Positions 3,710 through 20,799 of a DNA stretch of 21,515 nucleotides are shown here, one piece after another. A program made the translations under genes and the position numbers. This DNA comes from Phoronis ovalis. Its lineage: Eukaryota > Phoronida > Phoronidae. Where the stretch lies: contig JAOXYB010100493.1 in the NCBI GenBank assembly GCA_028565635.1, positions 1 to 21,515 of the forward strand, read 5' to 3'. Under the pieces are notes generated by a model. The model saw nothing but the letters and a program-made list of their open reading frames with translations. It searched no databases and was not told the origin of the DNA. Each line of letters starts with the position of its first letter. Positions within the stretch are counted from its first letter, which is position 1.

Positions 3710-3796
3710 TTACACAGACCTTCGAAGTCGAGCAAGAATTTGTCCTGGTTTAAGTACGATTTGTTGCAACCAACAATCTTCAGCCAGACCCATCAG
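3710..3796 (-). other. Exon 5: kinase C-terminal subdomain XI and stop
   Basis: The acceptor CCTTCTTTACAG is followed in phase 0 by 28 codons and TAA at 3712-3710. The peptide begins LMGLAEDCW and continues into KPGQILARLRR. This is the kinase helix H-I signature (LMxxCWxxxPxxRPxFxxLxxxL) with the RP pair replaced by KP. Its presence after the insertion shows that the kinase domain is split and not simply truncated. Confidence 0.8.
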
Positions 3797-6700
3797 CTGT
3801 AAAGAAGGAGCAAATGTGTAAAGAGGTATGCATACTTTGTATAGTCTGGATAGAATTGCCTCACTACAAACTAGGGCACATTTTTTGATATATTATTCCT
3901 ACTAATACATATAAAATGCTTCAGCTTTGCAGAAATGTTCAACTCTAAGTATTTAGATTATGCAAGGTTACTGTAACTTGAAAATCAGATCTGTAGGGGG
4001 CAGAATATTGATTGTGTATTGTTTGTTTGGAGAGGCCTTAGAAGCATACTATTAACTGCATCTTCAAGGAAATTTGCGTGCTGCCACACACATTTTTGAT
4101 TGAAGACATTGACACAACAAATTATGCACTTTTCAATGAAAATTCAAATAATCACACATTACTAAATGGTATTGCTGACTTAGATTGTGTCTTAACATGG
4201 CATTTCATTCACCAAGGAATAATGCAGGCTGATTGCAATAATCCACGAGTACAGATGGTCTCGTTTGTTGCCATTTGGCAGTAATTACTGCCTTACTTAC
4301 AGAACTTGTTACAACAGCTAATTTAAAAGCGAGCTAAGCTTACCTGTTGTGCTGAAGCTCCTAAATTGCCTCTTGCTACAATGTTCTGTGCCATATTTTT
4401 CATTTCTGACTTTTTTCCACTTGTAAGATTGTTAAAGTCTATCTCCAAAAACATGGCTGCCAATTCTTTGCAATACTCCATGTGCACCAATCCGTTGTCA
4501 TATCTGTAATTGTTTGGAGGTACAAAATTTCCGGAAGAGTTGAATGATTCACATAAAGGCAGTGACTGATTAAGGCTAAAGTTATTATGTGGCATTTCAA
4601 TATCAGGCATTTTGATTTTGTCCATGATGAGATCAGAGTCTAAAATAAGTGAATTCACTGATATAGTATCTTCTTCTTTTCTTATTTGTTCTTCAGTTTT
4701 GTAATGATCACATTTTGTTTGAGGTCGAACTGTTGCTAAAGGGTGATTTACAAAATGTTCATCGATGGCACATTCCTCACAAATTTGAATGTCACCCTTG
4801 TTTTGCAGCCCTGAATTCGGCTTTGGCACATTTGATATCCGTTCGTGTTTCCTCATTGGCGTACTTTTTGTAAACATTTCATCAATATTAGTTTCTTCCA
4901 CAAATCCATCATTATCAAAGCAAAATGTCTCAGAGTCATTTGATATGCTGTTTTTGGACTGTTTACGAGGCGCAGAAACCATTCTTTTGTTATTATTTTC
5001 ATTTATATTATGAGATATCATTTCTATGTCAATGGTATCTGATTTTGCACCTGGAATTGTTTCATAAATTTCATCATCAGACAGCTCATTATCTACTTCA
5101 TACAAAGGTGAACCAGTAAATGAATCTGCAAAACTGGAGTTTGAATAGGTAGACATTGTAGACATTGCAAGATAATCAGAACCAGCTTGACTTTGTGCAA
5201 GTCCAGAATCAATACTGCTGAATGACTCTCGGTTTGTTTTACCTATCCCTTCCTTCTTTCTTATTACATAAGTCGTTCTGTTAAATCTGTTCTCTGGATG
5301 ATCAGAACATTGTGCATATATTGTGTTACGATTGCGAGGTTTATTTTCAAATGTAGATGGTGTTCTTCGTCCAATGGATTTGGACTGACCGGTATAAATA
5401 CCACTGTCATGGCTTGCCATACTGCTAGTTGACGCTAGTCTTTTGCATTTCATTTTTTCATCTGCTCTATGTATTCGAATATTGTCAGTTGCTGTTACTG
5501 CTGGACTGTCCTCAAAAACCTCACTGTATATAGATGTCGCAATTGAAGAATTTCTGTATTCTTCATCATTAAGTGTTGACATGGATTCGTTAACAGAAGT
5601 TCCATCAGTAAGCTGATGCTCATTTGCTTGTACAATGGTGGCTTTTCCATTTAATGGTGTATCATAGAGATTCAGTTTTGCAAGCTTGTTTGATGATTTC
5701 TGGGTTTGCTCACATACTTTTGGTAACACTTGCCTTTTTTGTTTGCCATTTCTTAATTGTATGGGATAACATGTATTTAGACTTGTACTGCTGGATTTTG
5801 CAGAGAACTCGCCACTGATAAATTCATTCAAGATGAAACCAGCATGCAACAGTTCATCAATCTCAGCTTCCTTAGTATCAGTAAGCTCTTCTGGAACTGG
5901 AGGCAATTGTCTGTTTGCCATTGAAGACATGCAATTGGAACCTTCTTGTAAAAGTAGTTGACCTTTCATTGCCTTCTGTGTTGTGAATTTTCCAAATGTA
6001 TTTTCCACCTTAGACTTATTCCTAGTTGTGCTTGAAATACCGAGTTTAAAACGGCTTAAAGATGTTAGTATTTCTAACAGTATCAGTCCATAAGAGCGTA
6101 TATCAGGGGCAAACAAGTTTTGAGATTCCTGATTGTTGGATATTTCCTGAGTAATGGCATGAATTACATTTGGACGGTGGTTTTCTAACATTTCCATTGC
6201 ATATACAGATTGTTGGATACATGATGAATTCTCAAAATCTCCAATGACTGCTTTTACTGCCATATTCTGAAAAACATGATAAAATAATTCTGCATTATGT
6301 GTGATTGTATGAATGCATAAATCTATTTTAAATTAATTGTACTCCTTCTTTTTTGTTTCCTGCAATAAAAATTTAGAGAATAAACGAATAAATAGTAGAT
6401 ATCTGTAGCAAGAATTCAAAAAATCTAGTAATCTGTGTGTACTTTATGACCACTATGGACCAGGCTTATATTTTTACATGATTAATGAATAAACTTATAA
6501 ACGTGTTTACTTTTATCCTACTAGTACTAATTAAAGTAAACACGTTTATAAGTTTATTCATTAATCATGTAAAAAAATAAGCCTGGCCCATAGTGGTTAT
6601 CAAGTACACACAGATTACTAGATTACATGCGAAATTGATGATACCACTGATATCTTTTGGAGCCAGATGATACGGATTAACTGCAGATAAAATGTTAGCA

Positions 6701-9700
6701 TCTGCATATTTGATTGTAAGATATGTCAAAGAAACTGAAAATTGCAATTATTAATATCTAAATTCAGTCTTGTTTTCATAGTCATGTTTTCAGAAATCTT
6801 CAAACAGCTTTACTATAGCAATTTGGAACAATAAAAAATCTGCACATGTGACATTTATTTGAACTTACAAAATCAGATTTTATTTCCTATAATCCTAAAG
6901 GTAATAAAAAATAAGGGAATTAAAATTGAATAGCCAATAATAAAGTAGGCAGAGGTATAACAGAATCAAACATAATGTCCCAGCTTATTGTGAACAGATT
7001 GTTTACTCCCTTGTTATAGAATTTGCCTACTTATACTGTAATCTTCAGTGTATTATGCCAGCTATGGTGATATAAGCTCTTAAAATGAATTATAATTTTG
7101 CAAATGGCTGGAAATCATTGGTTTCTTTTGAGTTTCAAGAGCACTTGTAAAAATCAACATTTCAAATGACATATTGATAAATATGATGTTTGACCATTAT
7201 ATTGCACAAGTACAGCTGAGAATTCTTCAAACATTGAAATAGTATTATCATTGAATGTTCTAAATGTCAAATGTCATTTCAGTTTTTGGATTTAAAAGAC
7301 TTTCATTTAAGTACCTGTCTAAGTTTAAATGAGCAGCTCTACTCAGAGTTTAGGATGTCAGACAAGTGAAATTGTATTGAACACTTGTGTCTGCTTGGTG
7401 AAGGTTTAATTGATACAACAAAGTTATGAGAATAAACTTATTTGCTATATTTCTGAAGACCTAGTGAAGTGGTCTTCAACAAAACAAACACAGACCCAGG
7501 ATGCAAAGACCCAGAAATTGAATAATTGGGATAGAAAAGTTTAGACAAAATATATTTGAGGGTCTGAGATAATTATGCTTTCCACAGAATTATTTTTCAA
7601 TGCAATTTTCTTTAGTTTGGTTTTGTTTAATTTGAATTATTTGGATAGTACACATTAATGAGCCAATTAACAAAATGTAGCTAATAACAAATCAGTGAAA
7701 TAAAAAATAATAATATTTTTGCAATTTGGAGTTACAAGAACTACTAAATTTGTAATATGGTTGTTTGAACTTAGAAATTAGAACAATAGTGTTTGATAGA
7801 AAACGAGTACAATTTATTAAAACTTATAGAAAAATGTTTGAAAGTTTCATTTTATATTTTTTGCTAAAAACAGGTTTCATTTGAAAAGGTGCACAAATTT
7901 CGTGAAATTGGAGAAATGGATTAATTAATTAATTTGGATTTTTTTTTGAAAATCTGGAAAAAGAGATTGCATCAAATACAGAGCCATGTCAACTGATAAT
8001 TTTTACGCTACTTTTGAGCCTTGTAGCACTTTTGACTTACTTGCAAAGAACCAGCAATCCATACAGTTTTTGTGCTGAGATTGTTGTGCAAAATTTTCAT
8101 TTCTTGTAAATGTTCTAAACCATTGGCAATGTCCAGGCTGATATGTCTAGCAGCATCTTCTGTCATCTTATGGACATTGGTTTGAAGGAACTGTCTTAGG
8201 TTTCCATGCTCAAAACATTGCATGCAAATTATTCTGCAAAAAGATTTAGAGAATTTTGCTATGACTGTATTACAAAGGGTTATCCTTGTTGTATTATTTA
8301 TAGACAATATTAAACAAAATAAAAAATCAAAAACTGAAGATCATGAGCTATGTAAAACCTACAGTATCTGCTTGAAGTAATAATTAAAATACAAATATGA
8401 AGCAACTGAGAAAAGACTTCCAAAAGATGATTTTCTGTGTGTCAGAAAGATTTGGTAGACAATATACACTGTTTGTTTTTGTATTTGTAAAATGTACACT
8501 TTATTTTCAAGATTAGGTTTTATATCAAAAATTAATAATATTATAAATTGTAAAATTTTAGGTTAACTTTAAAGTTTGGTAAAATTTATTGCTGATCTTT
8601 GTTCTAAAGGTATTTTTGGACACCTTGAATAATATCTAATCAAATAGACAATTGGAAAGTTGTCGGTTCATTTATCTTTTTGGTCATTAAATAATGAATT
8701 TAATGAAGTGTCTCTAATTGAAAGCAAAATATCAGAAATCAACCCCCAGTACTGAGGTAACAATGGAAAGACTGGATTGCAAAACAAATATTTGCAATTT
8801 TCAATAAAAGGTGAATCATATACTGAAATAGATTTTATTTTGTGTGTGTGGGAAGGTATCAATTGCTTTGTGTTTATCTGAAGGATCAGTTTTGAGTATG
8901 CATGTTCATTTGCAACAAAGTTCTTTTCTATAAAAAACAAACTTGCTATGCAGAGCCAAGTGAAAGCACTGCTACTATTTCCATATAATTACTTATATGT
9001 GAAAAATAGCAAAAATAAAAAAGTCCAACTAAACTATCAACTGTTTTTTTTTGTATGGCATGAATACATCTGAGTAACAAATCAATAATTACTCGACCTG
9101 GGTTAATGTCAATAAGCTCATCAATACCAATTAAAAGAATGTATTGACATTTTGCCAGTACTGAATATATCCTGCACAGCCTGTTGTCATTGTATTATGC
9201 CCATATGTTTAGTAAAGAAAAAATATCAATTATAAACAAAAGAATATTTGCAGCTTATTCAGTCATATGAAAAATGAGATCGTAATAATTAAGAAAAATT
9301 GAGAAGCCTGGTACAAACTTCCTCCTCATCAACTATTAGTCACCTTAGTTACCTTGGTGCTAGAAACCAAAACTTCTAATTGTTTTGTAGTGTAAGTGTA
9401 AAAGTCAAATAATGATTCCTAATTATTTATTTGAAAAAATTAGTTCCTTTAATTGTTGTTATAGATGTGGGTTGGTACGCAATAATTAAGGGACTTTCAT
9501 TTTTTTTGTTTTTGAACTCAAAATGGAACCCATCTCTAGGAATATCACTGAAAAAAGAGACCATATGATTTTTGCCCAGGCAGAGGGATCCATTTCTATA
9601 GTTTTGCTGCAAATACGGAATAAACAAGAATGTTGTTGGAAAGTGGACCCATTTCTTGGGACTTTTCTATAAAAACTATATCGATTTCTTGATGAAGGTG

Positions 9701-11669
9701 ACCTACTTGGGTGGTACATATATATTTACCATATAGTTAAGCCCCCCCCCCCATCTAACTTTGCAGCATACTTTGTCATTTTCCAAAAAGAAACATTCAG
9801 ATTTAAAACTGTACCTGTTATTTGGGTTTGTTATCACTCCTGTTATGGTTTGAATAGCTTCAGTGTATTTATTACTCTTGGTGATCCACATGCATTTCAA
9901 AATATTAGGATGCTCCATCTTAGATAACTTGAGCAGAGCACATTTTTCCATCATCCAGTGTGTACGCCCGCTTGGTTTATAAACTTTCATTATACCTTGA
10001 AGTGTCTGTCCCATTTTTCCAGTCCATTGTATTTTGAATTTTGAAATTTCTTTATTCTGAAAAGATAGATGTATCATAATTACTTTATTACATCATGTAT
10101 TAATGTTTTTGTTTAATCTAGGTATTTAGTATTAAACTTTTTAAATGTTGAAAAAGTACCTAAATATATATAACAATTTCAGTTTCAATAAAATCATCCA
10201 GTTGTAACTTAACTAAAAACCTTTTGATTTTATTCCATAAGAATAAAGAAATAATAATCAATTTAAAAGGAAAAATATTGTACTTTGCACTAAAGAAAAA
10301 CATCTACATTCATTTAATGCTACTATGTGTCTAACCAAATTAAATGCAGTACAAGATAAAATCATATGAATGTTTTCCCGTTCCACTAAATCAGAAAAGG
10401 CTTACAAGATTACTGAAGTATGCATTCTATTAAATATTAACAGATAATGTCATTTTGGTTCATATCTTTATGCTTTATGATTAAAAGTATACTATTATGT
10501 ATAAATAAGTAAGGATTTCCTTAAATGTAACCTAATTCACATAATGATAAACAAGAGATTTGTTTCTGGTTTATATTATATTATGAAATCTCACTGACAT
10601 TTCATGAAAATAAATATTTCATGTGAACTTTGGGCAAAAAGAGTTTATAGTACATCACTTTTTTAAAATAAAAGTCTAAAGCAAATAAAAAAGAAATACT
10701 CACTTTACTTGGAATTGTAATGAGGTTTCTCAATTCTTTTGGCGATTTATCATGTAAGGGTTCCTTGTTTTTTCTATGTTTACAACTGTGACACGATTTC
10801 TTCAACAACGAAAAACTGATTGCAAAATGCACAATAGGATGGATGAGTGTTATTCCTGTTATATAGATGGATAGCAACCATACAATGATGTTAATTCCTG
10901 TCTGTGTCGGTACGAAATAGATATAAGTAAAAATGGCAAAAAAGGCTGTCCAACAAGCAGTTTCTGTAAAAAGGGCTATAGCAGTTCGTCTAGCAATTAA
11001 GTCCGCAGAGTCATCTTGTAATGTACTATCCACATTAAGTATTCTTTTACACCTTTTCCATCGTTTCTTTTTGTTGGTGAGAATGGAAACTGTATTGCAT
11101 AATAAACTGGCACAAATGGTCATCCACAATAAAATTAGCATCATAAGTGAAAAAGCCCACCCTTTTTGTCCTACTAGTCTAATGGGCAAACAAGTAAATG
11201 GTGTCTCATCAGTGAGATCAAAGACATCCACTGCCATTAATGGTAAAAATGTCAGTACTGCCGCAAAGGAAAGTTCTATCACTATTATTGTTAAAAATAA
11301 CCAACCATACCTTTTTTCAGATTTTTTTGTTATTTCTCCAAGTCGCCATTCTAGTAAAAAAACAGATGCCATTGCAAGGAAACAACAAGACATTTGAATG
11401 ATGAACATTGTGGAATATCCTGCAATTTGACATAATAAATTATCCTGGAACTCTTTTGTTAAAAGGAACAGTGCCAAACCTAATCCTTCAAGGAAATATG
11501 ACAAGTCTGTGAGTATCATAAAACATTTCATAGACACAGTTATACTTCTTGTAAATTTGAATACATGCCAGATTAGTAAAAGCACATTCAATAAAATCCC
11601 CAGTCCTGTCATTCCACTTAAACAATAATCGCTAGCACTCAGGGAATCGTCCATACTATCTGTTGCCAT
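3710..11669 (-). CDS. Class A-like 7TM receptor fused to a tyrosine-kinase-like pseudokinase (complete, 5 exons)
   Basis: Exons in transcript order are 11669-10704, 10056-9815, 8233-8041, 6266-4344 and 3796-3710, the last ending in TAA. Donors are GTGAGT, GTACAG, GTAAGT and GTAAGC; acceptors end TTTTCAG, TTTTTGCAG, TTTTTCAG and CTTTACAG. Phases match at all four introns (0, 2, 0, 0), giving 1,136 residues. The ATG has a good context (ACAAAATGG) and an in-frame TAA six codons upstream. Residues 1-290 are a seven-helix receptor without a long ectodomain, and 323-535 plus about 1091-1136 form one kinase fold. Residues about 536-1090 are a low-complexity insertion. The catalytic Asp is Asn454 and DFG is D477-F-E. 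The predicted role is a plasma-membrane receptor whose intracellular part binds signalling proteins rather than phosphorylating them; this is inferred. The ligand is unknown. The gene has not been recognised as any named family member. Confidence 0.85.
4344..6266 (-). other. Exon 4: activation segment, helix F and a roughly 550-residue insertion
   Basis: The exon encodes residues 468-1108. It opens with VKAVIGDFENSS, in which the DFG Gly is replaced by Glu (D477, F478, E479), then a short activation segment and FAPDIRSYGLILLEILT (519-535), which matches kinase helix F (DVWSFGVLLWEIxT). Residues about 536-1090 (roughly 6062-4398) are Ser/Asn/Thr/Glu-rich, without a recognised fold. Tyrosine motifs in it are YDTP (668), YSEV (714), YTGQ (758), YAQC (784), YLAM (832, a YxxM), YEVD (856) and YETI (868). 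RxxPxxP is at 586-592, and DSG starts at 754 and 820. The kinase fold resumes near NIVARGNLG (from 1095). The donor is CAG|GTAAGC; reading past it would stop six codons later. Confidence 0.8.
6422..6624. repeat. Long inverted repeat (fold-back element) in intron 3
   Basis: The left arm at 6422-6513 and right arm at 6533-6624 are reverse complements over 92 bases with four mismatches, separated by a 19-base AT-rich loop that includes CTAGTACTA. The element lies in the 1,774-base intron between exons 3 and 4 of the 7TM-pseudokinase gene and would form a long RNA hairpin in its pre-mRNA. No clear target-site duplication was seen at its edges. It is most simply a MITE or fold-back transposon relic. 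Confidence 0.85.
6625..8040. other. Remainder of intron 3
   Basis: The sequence is AT-rich with no recognisable coding segment. It is bounded by the GTAAGT donor at 8040-8035 and the acceptor just before 6266, with the fold-back element at its transcript-downstream end. Confidence 0.6.
8041..8233 (-). other. Exon 3: hinge to catalytic loop of the pseudokinase
   Basis: The exon encodes residues 403-467. The hinge and helix D read CFEHGNLRQFLQTN, matching the tyrosine-kinase pattern EYMEHGNLxxFL. Helix E reads HISLDIANGLEHLQEMKI, followed by LHNNLSTKTVWI where active kinases have HRDLxxxNVL. The catalytic Asp is therefore Asn454 and the metal-binding Asn is Thr459, so phosphotransfer is not expected. 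The exon ends in phase 0 at a consensus GTAAGT. Confidence 0.85.
8234..9814. other. Intron 2 of the 7TM-pseudokinase gene
   Basis: The intron holds an unrecognised 90-residue open frame on the minus strand (8940-8668), with no convincing splice sites or kinase-like motifs, and a degenerate repeat patch at 9527-9760. Kinase homology is continuous across the join of exons 2 and 3, so no missing exon is needed. Confidence 0.6.
9527..9760. repeat. Degenerate tandem repeat of about 60 bases ending in a C-run
   Basis: Close variants of ACCCATTTCTAGG occur at 9528, 9588 and 9647, spaced about 60 bases apart, followed by a run of 11 C at 9742-9752. The intervening sequence is strongly diverged. This looks like a relic of a dispersed repeat of the type that also gives G-run sequence at the right end of the window. 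Confidence 0.5.
9815..10056 (-). other. Exon 2: kinase N-lobe
   Basis: The exon encodes residues 323-403, joined in phase 0 to the 7TM exon. It reads FKIQWTGKMGQTLQG (a degraded glycine loop), then GIMKVYK with Lys346 as the likely beta-3 lysine, a helix-C segment, and KMEHPNILK, matching the kinase HPNIV element before beta-4. The helix-C glutamate is uncertain: the only nearby Glu (359) is offset by about three residues from the usual distance to HPN. The exon ends in phase 2 at NPNN with a GTACAG donor. Confidence 0.8.
10057..10703. other. Intron 1, joining the 7TM exon to the kinase exons
   Basis: This 647-base intron has a consensus GTGAGT donor (10703-10698) and a TTTTCAG acceptor. It is AT-rich without stable coding potential. 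A minus-strand AATAAA lies at 10234-10229, so premature polyadenylation giving a 7TM-only product is possible but unproven. Confidence 0.7.
10704..11669 (-). other. Exon 1: seven-transmembrane receptor module
   Basis: This single exon encodes residues 1-322. Hydrophobic helices lie at about 18-37, 48-70, 80-106, 122-143, 171-195, 228-252 and 259-283. Class A hallmarks that remain are Asn28 in TM1 (GILLNVLLL), Asp55 in TM2 (ILTDLSYFLEG), Cys80 at the start of TM3 paired with Cys160 in the second extracellular loop (TPFTCLPIR), and an EWR triplet at 107-109 where DRY/ERW normally sits. TM6 begins RRTAIALFTETACW. The CLP loop and TM6 recall the leucine-rich-repeat receptor (LGR/glycoprotein-hormone) branch, but no leucine-rich repeats are encoded. 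NPxxY is replaced by HPIVHF (277-282). The short third intracellular loop is basic (KKKRWKRCKR). Reading past the donor would add 33 residues and stop at 10602, so a 7TM-only form is conceivable. Confidence 0.85.
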
Positions 11670-16579: not shown

Positions 16580-19500
16580 CTATGTGTGTTTAAACAAAGT
16601 CTTTTTCCTACTCGGTATTAAAATCCGTTGTATCTGTCCATCACCCTCATCAGCAGCAAACCATTGTTGACAAATAAATTCATACTCATCACAATATGGT
16701 ATTTTTCTTGGTAAATGCCTGTGTCCTCTGTTAGTTTTAACTTCATTTTCACTGTCAATATCCAAATCAGTATCGTCAACAGAGTCATCGGAATCTTGAC
16801 TTTTTTCTTTTGCCTCATCTTCATCAGAAGATTCGCCAGAATCTTTTTTATGCTTTCTAGACTTCATTTTAGGCTGTTTCTGATATTTACTGGCATCTTG
16901 TCTCCATTTCTCTATCTCTTTCTTTTTTAGTGTTGTACCTTTCTCCGTATCAGAATTGTCTGAATCAATAAACTGAACACTTTTTTGACTTCCAAACAAT
17001 GAGTTACGTTTTTTAAGGCTAGATTTACTACCTTTCCTTTCAAGAGATTTGCTATGTTTCCTTTCGATGGCTTTACCCTTCTTATGTGTCACTTTCTTTT
17101 CCTCTTCATCATCATTGCCCAACAAGGATGCTCCGGACTTTGATCTAGATGTTCCAAATGGATTAAATTCCTCTTCAAATTTACTCCCTTTTCTCTTTTG
17201 TTTTTTCTCATCAACATCTTTCTTCAATTTTCTAGTTTTCCTTGTTTTAGATTTTTCATCTTCTGAATCACTAGACAAATCTGATGAGTCTGATGATTTT
17301 TTCCGATTTTTCATAATTTCTTTCGTAGACACCACATTAGACTTTTTATTTTTATCTTTTCTCGATGATGTCTTCTGCTTGTGTACTATCTTTTTCTTGT
17401 CCTCAGCATCATCTGAATCACTGTTAGGCTTTGATTTTTTCTTTAATTTCTGTTTCTTTTTATCATTATCTGATTCGCTGTCTTCAGAATCGCTATCTGA
17501 TCCTAATATTTTACTAAAGAAACCCTTCTTTTTCTTTTTAGATTTCTTTTTTCCTTCATCTGAATCGCTGCACTCCTCCTTATCACTATCCTTCCTTCCT
17601 TGTTTCTTTTTTCTTTCCTTTTTCTCTTCTTTTGATTCATTGTCTTCAGAGTGTTTATCCTTTAGCTCTAACACCCTCGTTTTAATTTCATTAGATGGTA
17701 AAAATCTTTTAACTATGACCTATAAGACAACATAAATCACCTTAGTTTCATTGCCATGCAATTGATGCATAAATCTTTATGTAATTTTAAATTAACAACA
17801 GTTATTTCCATATGCGTTAAAAGAATGAAAAAATGTTTTTATTAAAACGACACTTAGTCTACAAATGGTTATGAGCCACAATTTAATGATACAAAAGAAT
17901 ATCCATAGTCAGCCTTTCCTTTTTTCTTAATAATAAGAATTATATCTATACAGAAATGCTTTTTGAACGAATCGTATAGTTTTTGTGACAATTTGATGAG
18001 TATTTGAAATTCATTTATTGATTGATGTTTATTTTTTACAAGTATCAATAAAGCTCACCTTATCCAGGAACCAGCCAGCACCTAGGCCAGCATTATCATG
18101 ACCAATCATAATCTTCTGAATTAGACCAACATCTCTCACATCAAACTAAAAAAGAAAAGCATTTTTCATGAATCTGAGTCACATGGAATCAACAACATAG
18201 ATTATGCTTCTTTCACATGTTAACATTCGTAAATGTTCTCAATAGCTTTTAGGTGTTTTCCTTATTCCAAATTTTACCTTTTTATTAAGTTTGTACAAAC
18301 TAATTTGTTATTGCAACATTTTTTTATTCTTGTCATTAGCTCTCTTCAAAACATTATACTTATATGTTTATTAAGAAGTGGTGCTATTCTGAATTTTCTG
18401 AGTCATTTTCCAATAATCTGCTTAAGGTGGCATAAAAATGGCAATTCTGGGCTTTTAACTTCAACTGTAATACTAAATAACTTACTTGAAATTTGTCTAC
18501 TTGATTTCTCTCAAATGGATCCGCATGATTTCCTTTTTCTGCAGTCAATGGTAATAGCTTTGTTTTCCCTTTCTTGCCAAACATCTGAAGGAATACATTT
18601 GCATTGGTTCCTGCCATCATCTTGTCTCCCGTGTAGATGTTAAATTCAAATGGGACTGTGCCACCTAGAATAGTGAATCTCAAATGTTAAAAAGTTACAC
18701 TTAGAAAAGGAGAAAGGAAACAGCAACTATATCAGTAGGTGGTGTTTGAAACACATAACCAGCAATAATGACAGGTGAGAAATGTAAATTCAAGTGAAAT
18801 GTACATAAAAACATTAAGATTAGAAAAACTATAAATCTAAAAAAAATTTTCTTTTGTGCTTACTTTTTTCATTTCTTTTGCTTTGTTCAATATCAGCTTT
18901 AGTTGCACCTCTCGCTGCAATATCCCGCCATAGTTCACCATCTCCTTCATCTCTAGCTAACCAGTCATGACATGGGAACAGGTATTTATTCGACTTGTCC
19001 TCTGTGTCGACAATGACAACTTTTTCTAAAAACCAACCTGCAGCAATGCCTGTGCCATCATGTTCAATCCTTCAAGGAAAAGTTATAAGGTAATGTTTAT
19101 CAGTGTCTTACTGTTTTGCTTTACATTTTCAAAAGACAGTTAATTTGTGAACATGTCCATCTGACATCATAATACCACAGTCTATGATATTATAATTATA
19201 TGTAGTCGTATAAATAATATTCCTATATTATATTCAGTCCTATAAATCCATTAAGGTTACATAGACTAAAGACAATTATAACCTAATTATATTTTCAATT
19301 AACTAAGCTCATGGTATTTCTCTTAGATGTTTTCAAATTATGTCTGATTGCATAGAAATGCAACAAAATGTCAAATTTCTCGAATTGCTTCACACTCACA
19401 TTGACGTTTTGATTTTTTTTTCATTTTTTTTACTTTAACACTAAGTTGTACCTATAAATGAGTGTCAAGGAGATTTTGCATACCCTCCATTGGGGAAAAT

Positions 19501-20799
19501 TCTGTATCCGTAATGAACTTTTATCGTTGATATTTTGCATGCCCCCTTTGTGGAAAATCCTTGATCCGCCACTGCTTGAATTTCCTCTATAATATTTCAT
19601 GCATCATCTGAATTAGCCACTAACCTTATTTTTGTAAGAGGTCCAATATCTTCCAGACTTAAATCAAACTTGTCAGTCTCTCTACGCTCAAAACAATTTT
19701 TTGATTTATCTTGTAATTTGAATTTTGCACTAACACCTTGTCGTCCAAACAGTGTAATGAACACATTTGAGTCAGTGCCAGCTCCTCTTTTCGAACCAGT
19801 ATAAACTAGGACTATGTAATCTATAAAAAAATCAAGTGACAAACTAAATAATGAACACATTTGAGTCAATGCCAGCTCCTCTTTTCGAATCAGTATAAAC
19901 TAGGACTATGTAATCTATAAAAAAACAAGTGATAAACAAAATAATGAACACAACTAAGTCAGTATCAGCTTCTGTTTTTGAACTAGTGCACACTGGGATT
20001 ATATAATCAACAATAACGTGATACAAATAACAAGCTACTGTAACAAAAGACATGCGCTTTATCTGTTATACAACTTAAAAATGCCTTATGCCCATAAGAA
20101 CCAATTCAAAGTAATATAATTAATAGTAAGATTTGGTATTTAATAAGTTATATAACATACTAGTTTGGTATAATTATGAAACAAACATTATACAATAATC
20201 TGTGTCTTATGTTAATTTTTAGAGATATATAAAATATAAAAAAAGTATACCTTTAATCTCAGCTTCTTTTTCTTCTGCTGTAAGTTTTCGTTTAACTTTC
20301 TGGTCCTTCTCAAAAAGAGATAACCAATTCTGGCATTGAAATTCCCATGTCTGTCGTGTTTTCATATTTGTCATTTGTATTCTTTCTAAAAACCAGCCTT
20401 GTTTTTTCTCTACACCATCATGCTAAAAGAACCAATAGTTTTATCATGTTATTTAGAATTTAACCTAACTGCTGGTGTAAATAAAATTGAACATTGGCAA
20501 TGTTGCATTCTCTGGATTTTAGTCATTGCCAGCAATTTGATAACTATTCCACAAAAATTATATTAACGTTTGAATTCTGTAGTCTATCAGGTATACTTGT
20601 ATGTAAATTAGATGTGCTCAACAACACATAGAGTTCAACTCATACTTACCTCAACTATTAAATACTGAAGATCTCCCATATCAGGACCTTTGATGTAAAA
20701 CACCTCAGATGTATTTCGACCAAAATTAAAATGTGATCTGTTCTTTCTTAACTGAGTTTTCTTTAACAGCCCATCGGTTCCTTTTACAGTTATGAAAAC
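16580..20799 (-). CDS. LOXHD1: LOXHD1-like tandem PLAT-domain protein, C-terminal seven exons (5' end outside window)
   Basis: Exons in transcript order are 20799-20650, 20422-20251, 19820-19625, 19069-18864, 18664-18486, 18145-18059 and 17719-16580. All joins are GT-AG and frame-consistent, giving 709 residues plus stop. Three PLAT units are read: a partial one (from VFITVKGTDG to FQCQNWL), a complete one (DYIVLVYTGSKRGAGTDSN to FPCHDWLARDEGDG), and a third (FEFNIYTGDKMMAGTNAN to YEFICQQWFAADEGDG). Each shows the family elements GAGT(D/N)xNVF, FERxxxDKF, IGHD/EHDG, AGWFL and WLAxDEGDG. LOXHD1 proteins are long arrays of PLAT domains; in vertebrates LOXHD1 is needed in hair-cell stereocilia. 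The third domain is split by a charged insertion. More PLAT exons should lie to the right. A different tandem-PLAT paralogue remains possible. Confidence 0.88.
16709..17692 (-). other. Charged low-complexity insertion inside the last PLAT domain
   Basis: Residues about 340-667 of the visible protein are dominated by Lys, Ser, Asp and Glu. Runs include KKSKKKKKGFF, SDSDSEDSESDND and SSDSSDLSSDSEDE, which are many acidic-Ser motifs of the casein kinase 2 type. PLAT sequence is readable on both sides: WFLDKVIVKRF before (18059 into 17719), and YEFICQQWFAADEGDG then IQRILIP after (about 16700-16600). A long open frame on the opposite strand (17049-17735) is an artefact of this composition. Confidence 0.85.
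19472..19573. repeat. Transposon-derived repeat, two imperfect copies
   Basis: Two related units, GATTTTGCATACCCTCC (from 19472) and GATATTTTGCATGCCCCC (from 19529), are each followed by TGGAAAATxCT and ATCCG. The second ends CTTGATCCGCCACTG. The reverse complement begins CAGTGGCGGATC, which resembles the termini of nonautonomous DNA transposons common in invertebrate genomes. It lies in the intron between the 19069 and 19625 exons. Confidence 0.5.
19755..20033 (-). repeat. Tandem triplication of the 5' half of a PLAT exon
   Basis: Units begin with TAATGAACAC at 19755, 19849 and 19942 (94 and 93 bases apart). Unit 1 includes the functional acceptor and first 22 or so codons of the real exon. 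Unit 2 is nearly identical and keeps an acceptor (TTTTTTATAG), reading DYIVLVYTDSKRGAGIDSN before a stop. Unit 3 is clearly more diverged. Units 2 and 3 lie in the upstream intron and are exon-fragment pseudo-copies. Confidence 0.85.

Follow-up and report, generated by a model that had tools for sequence, protein, structure and literature searches.

Can a bilaterian animal carry a seven-transmembrane (7TM) receptor and a kinase-like domain in one open reading frame? The question is raised by contig JAOXYB010100493.1 of the phoronid Phoronis ovalis (assembly GCA_028565635.1), of which positions 1-21,515 (the window) were analysed and in which a first-pass annotation had placed a receptor encoded in frame with a kinase fold. 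A five-exon model was rebuilt from the sequence of the minus strand and gave a single open 1,136-codon frame, with the stop codon ending at 3710 and an in-frame stop six codons 5' of the ATG at 11669. The exons joined in phases 0, 2, 0 and 0 exactly as had been claimed and the consensus donors and acceptors were also recovered, with GT-AG at 4/4 introns. When scored with a textbook matrix the four donors ranked in the top 0.1-3.9% among 1,033 GT sites on the same strand and the four acceptors in the top 0.3-5.1% among 1,198 AG sites. The first junction had been given as 10703/10056; its acceptor side holds, but exon 1 ends at 10704 and 10703 is base 1 of the intron. We consider it fairly probable that the locus is one bilaterian gene for a membrane protein made of a 7TM domain, a basic juxtamembrane stretch, a tyrosine-kinase-like pseudokinase and a tail, which would act as a receptor-scaffold.

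The receptor half is encoded by exon 1. Taking residues 1-322 as the 7TM part and a 19-residue mean of at least 1.2 as a hydropathy peak, seven hydrophobic peaks were found from residues 16 to 276. Lysines plus arginines numbered 0, 3, 1, 5, 2, 10, 0 and 10 per loop from the N- to the C-terminus, a clean positive-inside pattern that fits an N-terminus outside and a C-terminus inside. Together the hydropathy peaks and loop charges support the earlier prediction of a 7TM protein with a cytosolic C-terminus. An AlphaFold model of exon 1 made with no alignment contained seven long helices and one short helix at a mean predicted local distance difference test score (pLDDT) of 50.9, which is low confidence.

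The further proposal that this domain is class A-like was not established by the family searches. A Pfam scan of exons 1-5 returned no 7TM family at E<=1. In the organism's own genome, for which an assembly of 77.4 Mb in 4,805 contigs was used throughout, exon 1 was absent from the 148 listed rhodopsin-type (7tm_1) matches. Compared with 10 and then 30 rhodopsin-type receptor profiles from this genome, the query was not distinguishable from segment-shuffled copies; its best phmmer score against the 30 receptors was reached by 27/100 shuffles and its hmmsearch score against own-genome receptors by 64/100. Alignment to the 30 own-genome receptors with hhalign gave 51.7% over transmembrane helices 6 and 7 (TM6-TM7), with 1/40 shuffled controls higher and with the TM6 CW and the TM7 proline in register. 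The sole PDB match of exon 1 was the prostaglandin EP1 receptor at E=0.15, covering TM4-TM5 in register, and cropping the query to the matching region gave E=0.028, which is a post-hoc figure. At the level of individual residues we take exon 1 to carry several class A hallmarks, namely N1.50 in TM1, D2.50 in TM2, C3.25 at the start of TM3, a cysteine in loop 4, the CW of TM6 and P7.50, and we take as departures from class A the change of DRY to EWR, the change of NPxxY to HPIVH and the missing TM5 and TM6 prolines. Class A kinship of the 7TM domain is plausible.

The second half is kinase-like. Exons 2-5 joined matched PF07714 at E=3.2e-15 with 56.6 bits (cut-off 23.1) over profile positions 10-200 of 258, and PF00069 at E=8.4e-11 with 42.2 bits (cut-off 31.7), which places the domain in the protein kinase superfamily. 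Taken singly, exon 3 matched PF07714 (4e-10, 39.9 bits) and codons 1-111 of exon 4 matched no kinase model; exons 2+3 reached 49.5 bits and exons 3+4 reached 50.1 bits on PF07714. The 9.6 bits gained with exon 2 were lost on shuffling it, as shuffled exon 2 joined to exon 3 gave 38.1-42.1 bits with 0/10 reaching 49.5, and on PF00069 exons 2+3 scored 36.4 compared with 34.8 for the best shuffle, a narrow margin. The Pfam kinase match ended at residue 214 of exons 2-5. Since lengthening the query did not carry the homology beyond a stretch ending at residue 219-222, the end of the C-lobe would be degenerate or split by an insertion. The "continuous kinase homology" of the first-pass annotation stands for exons 2 to early 4 and fails for the rest of exon 4 and exon 5. 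Its description of one 7TM exon and four kinase exons is right about the 7TM exon, but the kinase match covers only exons 2, 3 and early exon 4, and four is an overstatement because exon 5 is entirely, and exon 4 largely, non-kinase tail. Among PDB entries the kinase part matched JAK2 best (2.2e-6) and LRRK2 next (7.3e-6), which amounts to no family assignment. A tyrosine kinase profile from the own genome gave E=1.1e-9, and 200 shuffles did no better than 0.16.

Catalytic motifs were read from an alignment with 6/8 own-genome kinases, of which three look like tyrosine kinases; the remaining two (L020 and L031) had no HRD-like pattern in their longest frame and were left out. The catalytic loop HRDLAARN reads HNNLSTKT, with the catalytic aspartate changed to asparagine, DFG reads DFE and APE reads TQE, and the intact HRD, DFG and APE of an active tyrosine kinase were not found. 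The exon 4 stretch DIRSYGLILLEIL aligned with SDVWSFGVxLxELF. With HNN for HRD and DFE for DFG a pseudokinase is likely, and the tyrosine-kinase-like pseudokinase proposed at first pass agrees with both the PF07714 match and the altered residues; the domain is probably a pseudokinase. It is very unlikely that the domain is active despite its motifs, in which case the protein would be a genuine 7TM receptor kinase comparable to the G-protein-coupled receptor tyrosine kinases (GPCR-TKs) of sponges and choanoflagellates. Some atypical kinases are active despite altered motifs, and here the DFG aspartate and the APE glutamate are retained and IMKV may supply the beta-3 lysine (judged by eye, in a stretch unaligned in the kinase alignment). 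Activity is opposed by the asparagine in HNN together with DFE and TQE, by an alpha-C glutamate that is out of its usual register (by eye) and by a homology that ends before the end of the C-lobe.

After the probable pseudokinase follows a tail of about 560 residues with 15 tyrosines. Docking-like motifs in it comprise three YxN, one YxxM, one of YDxP type and one resembling an immunoreceptor tyrosine-based inhibitory motif (ITIM). We take YRNS, YSNS, YDNG, YLAM and YDTP to resemble docking motifs for the SH2 domains of Grb2, PI3-kinase and Crk.

The two halves meet across intron 1, and we infer the splice of exon 1 to exon 2 from the open frame, the splice signals and the phases. The donor at 10703 was the only one scoring above 2 in 10860-10560. 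Coding character was scored with a codon model trained on 54 frames (21,263 codons), which were the longest open reading frames of own-genome loci and were not individually vetted as genes. Read-through beyond the donor adds 33 codons, which scored -0.216 bits per codon. None of 979 overlapping 33-codon exon windows was as low, compared with 84 of 1,074 open non-coding windows; the medians of the two sets were 0.073 and -0.102, a modest contrast. By chance about 0.16 donors this good would be expected between TM7 and the stop and about 0.04 such acceptors within 36 bases 5' of exon 2, and with a 1 in 3 chance of a phase match this gives about 0.002 overall for two unrelated neighbouring genes, a figure that is only a guide because the thresholds were set by those very sites. 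The receptor and kinase halves likely form one gene, and the single 1,136-residue protein that had been put forward as most likely is also our best model.

Several results, collected in this paragraph and the next, weigh against a single receptor-pseudokinase protein. Left unspliced, exon 1 has a frame that stays open to a stop at 10602 and would give a receptor of normal size (355 residues), and an in-frame ATG lies 7 codons 5' of the exon 2 acceptor; two genes are therefore possible. Poly(A)-like signals occur within intron 1, with no density test for intron 1 alone, and exons 1, 2 and 3 averaged just 0.00-0.02 in the codon model, a weak signal. The open frame, the upstream ATG and the poly(A)-like signals would suit two same-strand neighbours: a 7TM receptor (about 355 residues) and, apart from it, a cytosolic pseudokinase whose start lies near 10077 or in a 5' exon missed by the model. 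In that case intron 1 might conceal a short final exon of the receptor; one open stretch of this intron, 10401-10261, has a score of -0.02, which falls among the values of the real exons. We hold two genes to be unlikely, as the read-through codons look non-coding, the donor and acceptor are strong and phase-matched, the gap from stop to ATG is only about 525 bases and the acceptor before 10401-10261 is out of exon 1's phase (by eye, no scan). One gene could also make two products, a short receptor by intron 1 retention or early polyadenylation and a spliced long form, which is compatible with the fused protein. The poly(A)-like signals and the frame that is open across the donor would permit this, but no coding signal was seen in the read-through codons and we regard it as rather improbable.

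For the fused receptor-pseudokinase, further counterpoints come from its parts and from the lack of relatives. An eighth, weaker hydrophobic peak (1.23) lies within the kinase domain at residues 527-545. Exon 2 alone matched no kinase model, PDB and own-genome kinase matches start only near its end, and with own-genome kinase profiles 23/500 and 44/500 shuffles equalled the real exon 2; its kinase identity rests mainly on Pfam. In the tail the combined count of docking-like motifs was reached by 3.7% of 5,000 shuffles and no single type fell below 7.7%, so the motifs are barely above chance and a hint only. The whole protein had no match at E<=10 among 5,319 scored candidates from a set of 5.8 billion proteins. 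The same set gave no homologue at E<=10 for exon 1 among 2,780 scored candidates and none for exon 4 (short flanks included) among 8,000, and exons 1 and 4 had no confirmed match in viral contigs. Within the own genome, where the first pass let through just 2 and 4 candidates, the 7TM query found only itself and the kinase query found itself and one match at 23% identity and E=0.25, with no paralogue. A scan against NCBIfam gave no match.

The own genome contained at least 148 rhodopsin-type matches and 161 PF07714 matches, 150 of which were compared. Both kinds occurred together only on contigs C3494 and C219 among the matches listed, on opposite strands, and contig C4688, which carries the gene studied here, appeared there with its exon 3 kinase match only. 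No second 7TM-kinase fusion was seen among the matches listed, which are matches by single exon and form lower bounds. Rhodopsin-type receptor matches were also observed in open frames that run unbroken for 740-788 codons (contigs C3458, C3181, C843, C1594, C4425, C111, C92, C252, C1519 and C1711) and in frames of 802 and 798 codons (C483 and C4563, respectively). These frames far exceed the receptor domain and possibly represent one receptor family with extended termini. Two kinase domains that look EGFR-like were found on C726 (L018) and C720 (L019) in single frames of 1,392 and 1,220 codons, which are unusually intron-less.

The statement made at first pass that GPCR-kinase fusions had been described in choanoflagellates, sponges and protists is backed by two papers (PMC12716839, PMC5784254). 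The first of these reports GPCR-TKs from choanoflagellates and, within metazoans, from sponges only, limits fusions to tyrosine kinase-like (TKL) or other kinases (GPCR-TKL/Ks) to acanthoecid choanoflagellates, and states that to its authors' knowledge no GPCR-TK or GPCR-TKL/K had been characterised (PMC12716839). The second places GPCR-TKLs only in oomycetes and amoebozoans, has lipid-kinase fusions (GPCR-PIPKs) reaching sponges, and terms GPCR-bigrams, in which a GPCR is joined to a catalytic domain, rare or even nonexistent in metazoans (PMC5784254). The word "kinase" is absent from the main text of a paper on sponge GPCRs (PMC4302439). No bilaterian 7TM-kinase or 7TM-pseudokinase fusion was found in the titles and abstract starts of the open-licence literature searched, which is not proof of absence. 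The present case is unusual because its host is a bilaterian.

As far as those sources describe them, the GPCR-TKs of choanoflagellates and sponges resemble the P. ovalis model in having a 7TM domain and then a C-terminal tyrosine-kinase-type domain in a single chain, an arrangement also found here in one open frame given the splice across intron 1. They differ in that choanoflagellate kinase domains hit curated metazoan tyrosine kinases strongly whereas the P. ovalis domain is degenerate, and in that the metazoan cases are confined to sponges whereas P. ovalis is a bilaterian. The acanthoecid GPCR-TKL/Ks and the oomycete and amoebozoan GPCR-TKLs share the order of 7TM followed by kinase, but theirs are TKL or other non-tyrosine kinases whereas the best PDB match here is a tyrosine kinase, with LRRK2 close. 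A DEP domain is present in 8/17 of the GPCR-TKLs of P. infestans, whereas Pfam found no DEP here.

Receptor tyrosine kinases with pseudokinase domains include HER3, ROR and RYK. They share with the predicted protein the combination of a membrane receptor, a tyrosine-kinase-like domain without catalytic function and a tail that carries tyrosines, but they have one helix and a large ectodomain whereas here seven helices follow a 15-residue N-terminus. JAK2 scores highest by sequence among solved kinases, with a match confined to exons 3-4, but its FERM domain, SH2 domain and second kinase domain were not found by Pfam in exons 1-5 at E<=1.

Table 1. Exons, first intron and hairpin of the candidate receptor-pseudokinase gene in the window.
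Feature	Position	Strand	Description
Exon 1	10704..11669	-	322 codons; short N-terminus, 7 predicted TM helices, basic juxtamembrane stretch
Intron 1	10057..10703	-	647 bases, phase 0; AAA|GTGAGT ... TATCTTTTCAG
Exon 2	9815..10056	-	start of the predicted kinase fold (N-lobe, HPNI motif); less clear with own-genome profiles
Exon 3	8041..8233	-	from the hinge to the catalytic loop, with HNN in place of HRD
Exon 4	4344..6266	-	remaining kinase fold, then long Ser/Asn-rich tail
Exon 5	3710..3796	-	final 28 codons and stop
Long hairpin, intron 3	6422..6624	.	95-nt arms, 95% complementary, 13-nt gap

The hairpin at 6422-6624 lies inside the gene and is without known role; an own-genome search with it returned only the same place and no other copies. 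Elsewhere in the window, a neighbouring gene at 16580-19899 on the minus strand gave PLAT/LH2 matches (1.9e-11, 3.6e-8 and 7.5e-5) in 3/4 pieces tried and also carries a long Lys/Ser/Asp-rich stretch. We take this neighbour to resemble LOXHD1. The own genome contained 60 homeodomain matches. Three homeoboxes at 12181-21132 of contig C3291, which we read as Hox3, Hox2 and Hox1, lie about 4 kb apart in one 9-kb stretch, a tight spacing. Other homeodomains we read as Engrailed, Cdx and NK1, with three presumably NK1-like ones (L052, L053 and L059) on separate contigs. The mitochondrial contig C1114 has an in-frame TGA within cox1, and by eye against conserved positions AGR reads as serine, ATA as methionine and AAA as lysine, which indicates the invertebrate code. 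Its gene order is nad3-trnS-nad2-cox1-cox2-trnD-atp8, then trnF on the opposite strand (protein genes by eye), an order that we take to resemble the lophotrochozoan ground pattern. Taken together, the Hox-like genes, the mitochondrial code and this order point to a bilaterian host that is very likely a protostome and probably a lophotrochozoan.

For the fused receptor-pseudokinase we infer the following mechanism as the most economical one. The 7TM domain would sense a ligand and its helices would move on binding, and this movement would alter the attached pseudokinase and hence its binding of a partner kinase. A pseudokinase that transfers no phosphate could still dock an active tyrosine kinase or regulate it allosterically, a role modelled on HER3 or on the JH2 domain of JAK, and SH2 or other adaptor proteins may be recruited by the cytosolic tail. 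The gene could have arisen when a single-exon receptor ended up 5' of a kinase gene and gained a phase-0 donor that let splicing skip the receptor's final codons and stop. The altered DRY and NPxxY sites would suit a reduced reliance of the receptor on G proteins, without demonstrating it, and the coupling with no separate G-protein step that had been proposed at first pass is a guess. That the protein represents a receptor type new to bilaterians, a 7TM domain with much of its G-protein switch lost that signals through a pseudokinase and a phosphotyrosine docking tail and thereby feeds GPCR-type input directly into wiring of the receptor tyrosine kinase type, is a tentative and rather doubtful suggestion. 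If the fusion is real, its occurrence in a bilaterian, with a kinase that looks dead, would mean that complex animals can also take this fusion route. It would also provide a natural system for the coupling of 7TM conformational change to a pseudokinase.

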